Shown: positions 56,685 through 62,873 of the stretch, piece after piece
Layout of the letters: each line of letters starts with the position of its first letter
How positions within the stretch are numbered: the first letter of the stretch is position 1
From: Shewanella sp. OMA3-2
GTDB taxonomy: Bacteria > Pseudomonadota > Gammaproteobacteria > Enterobacterales > Shewanellaceae
NCBI RefSeq assembly: GCF_021513195.1
Contig: NZ_CP090974.1
Location: forward strand, 3,732,001-3,796,000
DNA length: 64,000 nt
Direction: 5' to 3'
Translations under genes and position numbers: made by a program
Notes under the pieces: generated by a model
The model's input: only the letters and a program-made list of their open reading frames with translations
The model's database searches: none
What the model was told of the DNA's origin: nothing

Positions 56685-57494
56685 TTATAAGTTTACTGGC
56701 TCATCAATATGTTGATATTTTACATCACCAGAACCCGCAGTGTGAATAGTTAGCCCTTTAGCATATTCAACATCGATACTGCCTGAACCGTCATTAATGC
56801 TAACTAATCCTGCTACATGCTTAATGACCATGCTACCTGAGCCGTCATTCACATCAAGGCTACCTTTAATATCGGTTACATCTATGGCGCCTGAGCCGTC
56901 TTTAATGCTTAAGTTACCCGCCACATGATTAATAGTTATGCCACCTGAACCGTCTTTAATGGTTAAATTACCTGACACATTTTGCACATCAATAGCACCT
57001 GAACCATCTTCAATAACAAGGTTTTCACCGCCATCAATCGTGATACTGCCAGAGCCATCTTTTAAGCTAATATCGGCATTCATTCCATGAATATCGATAA
57101 GGCCAGAACCGTCAGTAATATCCATCAGTAGATGTTGAGGCAAGGTCAAGGTGACATCGATATAAGGTGAGTCAACATTAATCCAGCTTGAGCTTGGCTC
57201 AACTTTAGCCACCAACGTAGCTTGGTCACCCTCTTTGACTAGCTGTAAAGTGATATCGGCATCATCATCGGCAAAAATATCTGCTATTAGCTTTATATTT
57301 TTGACGTTTTCATCGCCTTTAATCACTAACTTACCCGCGCCAGTTTGTGCAACTAACTTTTGAATATCAGTGCTGTCTAGCATAAGTACTTGTTGCCTTT
57401 GGTCAAAGTCGCTGGCGATGCTGTAAGACACATCAAACACGTCGGTATACATAATTAACAATGCCGCAGCAGCGCCTACTAGTACTAATTCCAT
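56685..57494 (-). CDS. DGSG-repeat beta-helix protein (DUF4097-like), restarted by IS630
   Basis: 269 residues as read. A hydrophobic N-terminal segment (LVLVGAAAALLIMYTDVF) anchors or exports the protein. From about residue 128 a repeat of about 20 residues with the pattern DGSGxIxIxxVxGxLxI occurs seven times, with an eighth degenerate copy (AGSGDV), which predicts a right-handed beta-helix as in DUF4097 proteins. The native start is cut off: an IS630 element lies in codon 11. The ATG now used comes from the IS end and follows the transposase stop directly (TAAATG), giving MEL in place of about 12 native residues including two lysines. Confidence 0.82.
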   Translation of the reverse strand: MELVLVGAAAALLIMYTDVFDVSYSIASDFDQRQQVLMLDSTDIQKLVAQTGAGKLVIKGDENVKNIKLIADIFADDDADITLQLVKEGDQATLVAKVEPSSSWINVDSPYIDVTLTLPQHLLMDITDGSGLIDIHGMNADISLKDGSGSITIDGGENLVIEDGSGAIDVQNVSGNLTIKDGSGGITINHVAGNLSIKDGSGAIDVTDIKGSLDVNDGSGSMVIKHVAGLVSINDGSGSIDVEYAKGLTIHTAGSGDVKYQHIDEPVNL

Positions 57495-58619
57495 TTAATT
57501 CTGACTGTTTAAAAACTTATAAGCTCGGTTGAGTTTCGACCGGGCGTTATCTACATCAAACATCCAATTAATACTAGCCTTCTCGTTATTCCTGGTTGTT
57601 TCCCAAGCCTTAAGAGAAAGCCGCAGATCATTCCACGTGCCAATTCGTCTATCCAAACATTGTCTGTTCATCACGCCTATCTCAATTTCTACCATATTTA
57701 ACCAACTGGCATGTTTTGGGGTGTAGTGAAATTCAATTTTCTTCAAGATACGCCGAGCTTCTGCTGCTGGATAAGCTTTGTATAAAGAGCCTGGGGAGTG
57801 CGTTGTGTAGTTGTCTAAAACCAAGTGGATTTTATCGGCATCAGGATAATGAACATCAACCAAATCCCGCATACACGCTGCAAAGTCTTCTCGTTTCTTG
57901 GTTGCTGTTGCTTTAGCATGTCGCCAGCCTCTATGCCTATCGTACATCAGATAGATATTGGCCACATCTTCACGCCGGTACTCGTAATCTTCTTTAGCTA
58001 AGTGTCCTGGCGAAGCTAATTTGGGCGGTTTCACATGTGACACCAGTTGTTTCATTGCTTCATCAAAATTAACCACAGGATGTTTTTCATCCGCAGGCAT
58101 TGCATAAATATCAAGTACCTCTTCCATCTGCGCAATGAAGTCGCTATCTAACTCGCCAATACACCACATCTTCTTTTGCCATGGTTTTAATTCATTGTTT
58201 TTAAGCCGTTGACGGACGGTTTCCAGCGATACGCTTTCAAGCTCTGTCAGCGTAATTAATCTGTCTGCGATGAGTGATAATGTCCAGCGAGCGCGGCCAT
58301 CTGGTGGCTCGCTACAAGCAATGCTAACTAATGTTGCATCATCATTAGCTGAGAGTAATTTGGGTTGCCCTGTTCGTTTTCCTTCGGCGAGTGCGACCTT
58401 CAGTCCTTCTTCTACGAAGCGTTTTTTGGTTCGGTAAATAGTAGAGGTACTGGTATTGAGTAACTGGCTGATATCTTTATCACTGTGTTGATGTTGGTTT
58501 GCAAGCAACAGTATGTTGGCTCGTTTTAACAAGCGAGCATTGTGTAGGCCCTTGCTTAATAAAGTCTTTAAGGTGTGCAGTTCTTCTTGGGTCAACTCTA
58601 CAAGGTAAGTGATATTCAT
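57495..58619 (-). CDS. IS630-family transposase
   Basis: 374 residues. The N-terminal third holds two helix-turn-helix parts (ANQHQHSDKDISQLLNTSTSTIYRTKKRFV and the Leu-rich TVRQRLKNN region). The DDE core is seen as PVVNFDEAMKQL (D), IHLVLDNYTTHSP (D) and ASWLNMVEIEIG (E). It should cut at TA targets. The stop codon is followed directly by the ATG of the adjacent DGSG-repeat gene. Confidence 0.92.
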   Translation of the reverse strand: MNITYLVELTQEELHTLKTLLSKGLHNARLLKRANILLLANQHQHSDKDISQLLNTSTSTIYRTKKRFVEEGLKVALAEGKRTGQPKLLSANDDATLVSIACSEPPDGRARWTLSLIADRLITLTELESVSLETVRQRLKNNELKPWQKKMWCIGELDSDFIAQMEEVLDIYAMPADEKHPVVNFDEAMKQLVSHVKPPKLASPGHLAKEDYEYRREDVANIYLMYDRHRGWRHAKATATKKREDFAACMRDLVDVHYPDADKIHLVLDNYTTHSPGSLYKAYPAAEARRILKKIEFHYTPKHASWLNMVEIEIGVMNRQCLDRRIGTWNDLRLSLKAWETTRNNEKASINWMFDVDNARSKLNRAYKFLNSQN

Positions 58620-58671
58620 GGCATGATACTCTCATCTATCAAAGACGATAATTGATCACAAAGCCTTAAAA

Positions 58672-58935
58672 ATGTCGATCCCCACAGAGAAAAAAATTAA
58701 TTCCGCATTTAGTGTGAAGCAAGGCCAATACCTTGCTTTCATTTATTATTACAGCAAAGTGAATGGGTATCCGCCAGCTCAGGCTGATATCCAGAAGTAC
58801 TTTGGTGTTTCAGCCCCAACAGTTCATCAGACAATTTTGAAGTTAGAAACAGACAAATTGATCAGCCGAACTCCGAGAGAAAGTCGTTCTTTGAAAGTAT
58901 TAATAAAGACCGATGAGCTACCATTGGAATGGTAG
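58672..58935 (+). CDS. LexA-N-like winged-helix protein carried by the IS630 element
   Basis: 87 residues. The fold is recognised from FSVKQGQYLAFIYYYSKVNGYPPAQADIQKYFGVSAPTVHQTILKLE, a winged helix like the LexA DNA-binding domain. It has no protease domain. It lies inside the IS, divergent from the transposase with a 52-bp gap, and ends 29 bp before the right end. A role as regulator of the transposase promoter is plausible but unproven. No clear Shine-Dalgarno sequence. Confidence 0.7.
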   Translation: MSIPTEKKINSAFSVKQGQYLAFIYYYSKVNGYPPAQADIQKYFGVSAPTVHQTILKLETDKLISRTPRESRSLKVLIKTDELPLEW

Positions 58936-58964
58936 CTCAATCGATCATAACTAAATTGAAATGG

Positions 58965-58997
58965 TACTAGCACGACTTTAGTTTTCATTGTGGCCAT
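58965..58997 (-). pseudogene. Severed 5' end of the DGSG-repeat gene
   Basis: ATG 58997 has AAGGAAG upstream and encodes MATMKTKVVLV before running into the IS630 end. Joined across the TA duplication to 57482, it continues in frame as LVGAAAALL, which restores a normal signal sequence with KTK before the hydrophobic core. Confidence 0.8.
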
Positions 58998-59310
58998 TTT
59001 ATTCTTCCTTGTTTTTATTTTATTGGCTTCAGACAGTTGAAACCGTCAATATAATTTGATCACTCTGTGTAAGATGTAATGGGTATTAAAAGTTAACACA
59101 GACTATTTACTGCTATTAAGTCATGATTAGCAATTGATCAGCAATTCGCGTACCACAATAGTAACAAGCTGTTTTATATAAACTAACTTAATTTATAATT
59201 AAAAAAACTTAAGTGAAAAACACCACAAATTATGATTTTTCACTCATTTATGTTCAAGTATCAACTTCTGCTATCATGGCGGTTATCTCTATGTAAATAC
59301 AATAAGTAAA
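58998..59310. other. Gene-free stretch between the split gene and yjjX, 313 bp
   Basis: AT-rich. It contains the ribosome site of the split gene and presumably its promoter and that of yjjX. No other feature was seen. Confidence 0.4.
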
Positions 59311-61639: not shown

Positions 61640-62873
61640 ATGACCGACAGCCAATTTGATCACCAAGCCATACGCAGCCAATTTCCGATCCTAGATCAGC
61701 AGCTAGGTGAACATTCGCTTTGCTATTTAGATACCGCCGCAACCAGCCAAAAACCGCAATGTGTGCTTGATGCGATGAATGACTACTATGTGCAAAATAA
61801 TGCCAATGTACACCGTGCAGCGCATCAGTTAGCCGCCAGAGCCACGCAACAATATGAAAACGTGCGTATACAAGTGCAGCACTTTATTCATGCGGTCACC
61901 AGTCAACAAATCATCTTTACCCACGGTACTACTGAATCAATTAATATGGTCGCCCACGGGCTAACCGAGCAGTTTAAACCTGGTGATGTCATTTTAGTTG
62001 AGGGCGCCGCGCACCATGCCAATATTGTGCCCTGGCAGGCTTTAGCGCAACGAACTGGTGCCAAGGTTATCGCGATCCCGTTAGATAATAACGGTCAAGT
62101 TGATCTTACCGCTTACAATAGTTTATTAGCTCAGCAGCCAAAATTAGTGGCTTTATCCCATGTCACCAATGCACTAGGGATTCAAAATCCGGTTGCCGAC
62201 ATGGTGGCTAGCGCCAATAAAGTCGGCGCGATAACCTTAATTGATGGTGCGCAAGCCGTGGCGCACTTAGAGGTTGATGTAGAATCAATGGGTTGTGATT
62301 ACTATGTATTTTCAGGCCATAAAATGTATGGACCTACTGGGGTTGGCATTTTATATGGCAAACTTAACGCCCTTGAAATACTTACCCCTATGCTAACTGG
62401 CGGTGAAATGATCAAAACGGTCAGCTTTGCTGGTACAAGCTATGGCGAGTTACCAAATAGATTAGAGGCGGGGACGCCAGCAATAGCAGAGGTGATCGGC
62501 TTAGGCGCGGCGATCAGCTTTTTTATCTAATTTACCTAAAATACAGATCCGTCAACACGAACAATATTTAATTCAATATCTTCAGCAACAGTTAAGCCAA
62601 TTGGGCGATATTAACGTATATGGTGTAACGACTAACACCCCCAATATTGGCGCTGTGGCGTTTAATCTGGCTAATGAGCACCATCAAGATGTCGGCATTT
62701 TATTAGATCAGCAAGGCGTGGCTATCCGTGGCGGCCATCATTGTGCTATGCCGTTAATGCAAAGCTTACAGATTAAAGGCTGTTGTAGAGCCTCAATAGG
62801 GGTGTACAGCAATCAACAAGATGTTGATCGCCTTATTAGCGCACTGACTGAAGTAAAATCGATTCTATTGTAA
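61640..62873 (+). pseudogene. csdA: Cysteine desulfurase CsdA, one frameshift
   Basis: The intact protein would have about 410 residues (class II, SufS/CsdA). LCYLDTAATSQKP, HRAAHQLAARAT and the PLP-binding K228 in FSGHKMYGPTG lie in the first frame, which ends at AAISFFI. A run of six T at about 62519-62524, where five are expected, shifts the frame; the second part continues as LSNLPKIQIRQHEQYL and carries the active Cys in RGGHHCAMPLM. The length is 1 mod 3, as expected for one inserted base. The enzyme would release sulfur from cysteine to CsdE. The gene may be intact in the living cell if this is a reading error. Confidence 0.9.

Follow-up and report, generated by a model that had tools for sequence, protein, structure and literature searches.

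A repeat-derived, in-frame start codon at the edge of an IS630-family insertion bearing a LexA-like gene in Shewanella sp. OMA3-2

A 64,000-nt stretch of the genome of Shewanella sp. OMA3-2 (contig NZ_CP090974.1, positions 3,732,001 to 3,796,000; hereafter the window) carries an IS630-family element close to the start of a gene for a DGSG-repeat envelope-type protein, and the terminal inverted repeat of the element provides an ATG that is in frame with the rest of that gene. Taking all parts together, we consider it likely that a recent insertion by a member of a regulator-bearing IS630 subgroup strongly reduced the DGSG protein, the in-frame ATG having come with the repeat. The regulator-bearing subgroup is a more durable finding than the fusion.

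Results

Boundaries of the element

The genome (4.09 Mb, one contig) contains a second copy of the element, which differs from the window copy by one base (57542) in 1486 bp. Both copies have identical junctions (CTA/GTAC ... GTAC/TAG) with the TA duplicated in CTAG, which fixes the element ends and the CTAG target (Table 1). The preliminary description had placed an IS630 insertion at 57477 to 58997 with its TA in codon 11 of the host gene; the insertion and the TA stand, whereas the junctions of the second copy move the borders inwards to those of Table 1 and empty-site relatives put the TA in codon 10. Read inward, the terminal inverted repeats (left GTACTAATTCCATTTAATTCTGAC, right GTACCATTTCAATTTAGTTATGAT) match at 17 of the first 22 positions, and the left end reads GTACTAG in close relatives, GTAGTAG in V. 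mytili and ACACTAG in two distant ones. The transposase was recognised by NCBIfam transpos_IS630 (NF033545, 218.7 bits, cut-off 100) and Pfam DDE_3 (PF13358, 91.8 bits, cut-off 28.6). The DDE transposase, the TA duplication in CTAG and the inverted repeats are those of IS630, and the single transposase gene of that family is not what we found: since a second, conserved gene lies beside the transposase, the element is assigned to a variant subgroup, not to plain IS630.

Table 1. Features of the insertion locus (window coordinates)
Feature	Position	Strand	Size or composition	Remarks
Hybrid ORF (MELVLVGAAAALLIMYT...), DGSG-repeat envelope-type protein	56685-57494	-	269 aa (native 274)	
Left TA of target duplication	57480-57481			inside CTAG
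IS630-family element	57482-58967		1486 bp, GTAC...GTAC ends	block and junctions common to second genomic copy
Left terminal inverted repeat	57482-57503			contains transposase stop and outward ATG; 17/22 match to right end, ends compared across relatives
IS-borne ATG	57492-57494	-		directly after transposase stop
IS630 transposase	57495-58619	-	374 aa	NCBIfam transpos_IS630, Pfam DDE_3
Operator-like dyad	58623-58652		11-bp imperfect arms, 8-bp gap, 7/11 paired here	just before transposase start
Divergent passenger gene, LexA-like winged helix, probable element repressor	58672-58935	+	87 aa	Pfam and profile match, conservation, dN/dS
Right terminal inverted repeat	58946-58967			
Right TA of target duplication	58968-58969			inside CTAG
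Severed native 5' end of DGSG gene	58970-58997	-	codons 1-9 and first base of codon 10	
Native Shine-Dalgarno AAGGAAG	59004-59010	-	-5.4 kcal/mol	now apart from gene body; same in empty-site L014

Shewanella provides the nearest named relatives of both the element and the DGSG host gene, and Shewanella inventionis has more copies of the element (99% over 1151 bp), most of them interrupted by contig ends. Close relatives of the element are scarce in the order (2 of 394 genomes, this one included, at E <=1e-100), more distant transposases are frequent on plasmids (129 records at E <=1e-60), and a search of phages for the element gave no match. A bare 24-bp left end, with no transposase, was seen at about 1495-1518 of L127 (G067:C64), some 380 bp beyond a transposase gene of IS200-like type (Y1_Tnp), and is possibly a remnant or a small derivative. 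On Bradyrhizobium and Rhizobium plasmids (L155 and L156, near 2595) an annotated ABC-transporter/ATP-binding gene overlaps the transposase 3' end and terminates within the element; it is apparently their end, and not their start, that these host genes take from the IS.

Empty site and hybrid reading frame

Empty-site relatives of the interrupted gene read MATMKTKVVLVGAAAA, in the same frame as the hybrid, and the empty site itself is K-V-V-L-V-G-A. The nearest uninterrupted ones start MATMKTKVVLVGAAAALL (L014, 85%) and MATMKTKFVLVGAAAALL (L015, 70%), the L014-type start being found also in P0122, P0123 and P0125, and the flanks of the window joined without the element give an uninterrupted protein of 274 aa, MATMKTKVVLVGAAAALLIMYT. 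An empty site in another reading frame was looked for, and L014, L015 and the joined flanks all have the same one. The ancestral start MATMKTKVVLVLVGAAAA proposed earlier is two codons too long; its extra L-V comes from the insertion, as the empty-site relatives and the joined flanks reveal. Homologues of the DGSG protein occur in 108 of 117 genomes of the genus (E <=0.001), many of them distant, and the hybrid protein is found in the protein database from this genome only (P0121, one member). The native promoter side now stands 1.5 kb from the gene body.

The transposase ends in NSQN-TAA (stop at 57495-57497, - strand), and the stop is followed by ATG GAA TTA GTA C and then by TA G of the host gene, giving the in-frame ORF MELVLVGAAAALLIMYTDVF. 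The preliminary description had joined TAA, ATG GAA TTA G and the host gene in one frame, which the intact ORF of 269 codons confirms, and had noted a retained hydrophobic core with loss of charges, with which our values agree: the best 12-residue Kyte-Doolittle mean is 2.94 in the native and 2.91 in the hybrid protein, and the charge of the n-region falls from +2 to -1. An n-region such as that of the hybrid is uncommon, though precedents exist, and the charge change alone is no proof of an export defect, because 13 of 103 N-terminally hydrophobic proteins in a 464-kb sample of the genome (352 called genes) have n-regions of -1 or below.

Elsewhere in the window, a SufS/CsdA-type cysteine desulfurase gene (61640-62873, +) appears to be frameshifted or to contain a sequencing error, since it falls into two frames that overlap (61640-62530 and 62505 to 62873).

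Origin of the outward ATG

The outward motif TAAATGG is part of the terminal inverted repeat. CCATTTA, that is TAAATGG read outward, is present also at the right end of the Vibrio copies L052 and L070 and of the Legionellaceae-type copies L045, L046 and L047 (the last filed as a Crocinitomicaceae MAG); the presence of the motif at that opposite end too assigns both the stop codon and the ATG to the inverted repeat. Shewanella right ends have CAATTTA, not CCATTTA, and the more distant relatives L044, L048, L049, L053 and L062 have no TAAATGG left end. Judged by these ends, the outward ATG is a by-product of the inverted repeat and has a mundane cause.

Frequency of in-frame fusions

The rate of fusion expected by chance was taken from 464 kb of this genome with 1052 CTAG sites, corresponding to 2104 site-orientations. 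Within called genes CTAG lies in the CTA/G phase, the one in which the outward ATG reads, at 474 sites, in the next phase at 241 and with TAG in frame (possible only as stop codons) at 13. An outward ORF of at least 50 codons was obtained at 25.2% of the site-orientations and one of at least 250 codons at 9.0%; at these rates a single fusion is unremarkable by itself. The comparison set comprised the 12 copies with a transposase end before the repeat, out of 19 outward-frame rows; those dropped were L127, L074 and L075 (no transposase before the end), the right-end rows of L045, L046 and L070, and L051, which has another end (TAATG) and an outward ORF with 6 codons. Outward ORFs of at least 50 codons were present in two of the 12, with about three expected, and enrichment of fusions among the copies was rejected (2/12 vs about 25%). 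Right-phase insertion within the first 12 codons is offered by 14 of the 1052 CTAG sites, about 0.7% when halved for orientation. Two start-proximal cases among 12 copies are striking, and we make no claim from them because the first was picked by the reader of the window and the category was set after the fact.

The two fusing copies are that of the window (269 codons) and L070 on a Vibrio alginolyticus plasmid (NZ_CP014052; 122 codons). L070 resembles the window copy in its transposase (71% identical), its passenger gene, its TAA-ATG end and the way it is fused, in frame, to the N-terminal part of a membrane protein, which the database annotates as a permease starting at the IS ATG; it differs in the host gene and in the outward reading (MERVLV, MELVLV in the window). 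The L070 fusion is an independent parallel. Both host proteins start with a hydrophobic segment. On its other flank, L070 has a GGAG resembling a Shine-Dalgarno, together with an ATG that precedes the CTAG by a few codons. Other plasmids have near-identical relatives of the permease, which match from residue 17 on in the 15 listed of 29 matching records.

Further copies were sought with TAAATGGNNNNGGTACTAG, a pattern to which the Shewanella ends (AGTACTAG) do not conform. It hit 51 stretches in viral contigs, one of them (L100) with a transposase end before it, and within the class it was found in one of 369 genomes (G584, two places). These two TAAATGGAAAGGGTACTAG sites (L074 and L075) are identical in letters to the end of the Vibrio plasmid copy and have no recognisable transposase before them; they may be chance, since a reversed control pattern gave three places in the same genomes.

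Signals for translation and transcription

Pairing with the anti-Shine-Dalgarno was +0.2 kcal/mol at the IS ATG, compared with -5.4 kcal/mol at the native start; among the 352 called starts, 0.9% show pairing this weak, but the start caller prefers strong Shine-Dalgarnos and so biases the percentage. The local RNA fold at the IS ATG is ordinary (z 0.25). Five promoter-like sites were found in the region (shuffle mean 5.1) and three terminator-like sites on both strands (shuffle mean 1.4), one of them a stem on the strand of the native promoter (57622-57637) within noise; with the promoters at the shuffle mean and the terminators at 3 vs 1.4, these scans decide nothing. Even where no strong Shine-Dalgarno is present, ribosomes can terminate and reinitiate across TAAATG, and an ORF abutting a stop codon often permits some restart. 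A strongly reduced DGSG protein, with at most low-level restart, would be the most likely outcome, because the protein could be made only by restart without a Shine-Dalgarno.

A conserved LexA-like passenger gene

The preliminary description correctly assigned an IS630 element and a host gene to this interval and overlooked a gene that diverges from the transposase, with 52 bp between the two start codons. Its product matches Pfam LexA_DNA_bind (PF01726, 25.5 bits, cut-off 23.7), and a profile of 30 members matches LexA 3k2z with E=5.8e-8, followed by MepR/MarR regulators with E=0.011. The match to TIGR00498 (27.7 bits, cut-off 110.95) covers positions 4-70 of 203 only, and the passenger ends after the winged helix, where LexA continues with its C-terminal self-cleaving/dimerisation domain.

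The passenger is present in all 13 scorable relatives with a transposase identity of at least 50% and in none of five more distant ones. These 18 were scored among 31 loci scanned: the 13 with sufficient upstream sequence are L044-L050, L052, L053, L070, L072, L155 and L156, and the five distant ones, each with at least 390 nt upstream, are L055, L056, L058 (50% in one piece, 35% in the other), L059 and L061. The 13 unscored loci were L043, L054, L057, L060, L063, L064-L067 and L069 (upstream sequence too short, or a transposase that starts at a contig end), L068 (a short transposase fragment at a contig end, no passenger seen in 4 kb upstream), and L051 (55.9% identical, 206 nt upstream) and L062 (a transposase remnant), in neither of which a passenger was seen; weak passenger matches in L060 and L064 (E 2e-4 and 4e-4) lay far from the transposase. 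Outside the 31-locus count, L005, L010 and L011 also have passenger sequence. That of L005 (G103:C49, 1553-1799) is a decayed relative in three pieces in different frames. The dN/dS of the passenger is 0.054 between two Vibrio copies and 0.092 between two Legionellaceae copies, similar to that of the transposase in the same pairs (0.048 and 0.061), which indicates that the passenger is a maintained protein.

An operator-like dyad before the transposase

At -33 to -4 from the transposase start, an operator-like dyad is common to five gammaproteobacterial relatives, which have 11, 9, 9, 7 and 6 of 11 positions paired. The total of 42/55 exceeds the maximum of 34 in 20000 column shuffles, a test made somewhat favourable by taking the position and spacing of the dyad from the best case (L044). 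Of the 14 sequences scored, L072, which was outside the shuffle test, has 7/11 paired at the same place, and the eight others (L045-L050, L155 and L156; Legionellaceae-type, alphaproteobacterial and further) have 3-6/11, about chance to slightly above; the dyad is thus confined to Shewanella/Vibrio-type copies and does not extend to the whole subgroup. The passenger probably represses the transposase, in which case the dyad would be its candidate site, and the subgroup is apparently self-regulated.

Discussion

The data are best explained by a recently moved IS630-family element that inserted, probably by cut and paste, at the TA of a CTAG in codon 10 of the DGSG gene, parting it from its promoter side, its Shine-Dalgarno and codons 1-9. 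The left inverted repeat (TAAATGG) contains the end of the transposase frame, for which reason an ATG follows directly upon the stop, and at this CTAG it happens to be in frame with the host gene. Protein would then arise only if ribosomes, having completed the transposase, started again with no Shine-Dalgarno, and the phenotype would most likely be a strong reduction, between no product (knockout) and a trace of MELV- product. Meanwhile the LexA-like protein of the subgroup would repress the transposase, the dyad at the transposase promoter being the candidate site in Shewanella/Vibrio-type copies. Against this explanation, the native promoter could still give rise to a transcript that crosses the element, and the body of the hybrid gene is undamaged. 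Its lower limit, included in it, is that translation never starts at the ATG, leaving the gene dead; the severed native start region and the missing Shine-Dalgarno at the IS ATG favour such a plain knockout, the intact ORF that directly abuts the stop codon opposes it, and we regard it as a serious possibility of slightly less than even chance. That the hybrid works, with translation coupled to the transposase and export changed by the lost positive charges of the n-region, appears unlikely. An intact in-frame ORF with its hydrophobic core kept and an n-region gone from +2 to -1, the same arrangement in the V. alginolyticus plasmid gene annotated as a permease, and a dN/dS of 0.10 between the DGSG gene and that of L014 would agree with it; yet most of this dN/dS predates the insertion, since the two IS copies are 1 base apart in 1486, and amino-acid changes number 10 on the window lineage and 5 on that of L014, a small difference that we consider too few to show decay. 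A functional hybrid with altered export, as put forward in the preliminary description, thus lacks support, given the +0.2 kcal/mol at an ATG without a Shine-Dalgarno, the origin of that ATG in the inverted repeat, a fusion rate among copies not above expectation and the 13 of 103 proteins with comparable charge.

It could further be supposed that the outward ATG was itself selected, as a portable start in the CTA/GNN phase that softens insertion damage, a proposal compatible with the other readings. The ATG is kept in the 12 left ends with a transposase 3' end before them, but the search pattern contained ATG; of the 728 CTAG sites within called genes, 474 have the CTA/GNN phase. Vibrio/Legionellaceae-type copies have this motif at their other end as well, which points to the inverted repeat instead, five relatives (L044, L048, L049, L053 and L062) do without it, and only two of 12 copies use it, and we consider such selection very improbable. 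As the main reading it was rejected, the inverted-repeat origin explaining the motif. Scarcely more probable is a combination in which an autorepressor and a stop-start fitting the commonest CTAG phase would place host translation, after near-start insertions, under transposase coupling and repressor control, with two independent examples. If true, promoter, Shine-Dalgarno and signal n-region would have been swapped in both the window gene and the Vibrio plasmid permease.

On the explanation that we prefer, insertion with strong reduction, a start codon can arise by accident at the edge of an insertion where an inverted repeat overlaps the stop, and annotators should be warned that such ORFs are called as genes, as with the Vibrio permease, although insertions created their starts. 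To judge from the conserved LexA-like gene, transposition in this IS630 subgroup may be under built-in control. Neither a passenger-bearing IS630 subgroup nor the terminal ATG was found described in the literature searched, ISfinder lying outside that search.

Among known systems, the DUF4097/LiaG-like beta-repeat envelope proteins have the DGSG repeat body in common with the host protein, and some of its homologues carry PF13349; the window protein differs in having no Pfam match at E 0.001 and a score of 39.9 bits against the LiaG-like profile, far under the cut-off of 285. The passenger has the winged helix of the LexA DNA-binding domain (3k2z, 1lea), and its candidate site consists of two arms separated by 8 bp; these arms differ from the LexA box. 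Unlike LexA it has 87 aa only, and because the protease and dimerisation domain is absent, no SOS cleavage is expected. The element itself has the DDE transposase, the TA duplication and the CTAG preference of IS630 of Shigella sonnei and of the IS630/Tc1/mariner family (ISY100). For an IS630-associated transposon, TA in 5'-CTAG-3' is named in the title of a 1991 paper that PMC2170065 cites, and IS630 and ISY100-type elements are described with a single transposase gene in PMC2170065; the window element departs from them in its second, conserved regulator gene divergent to the transposase.
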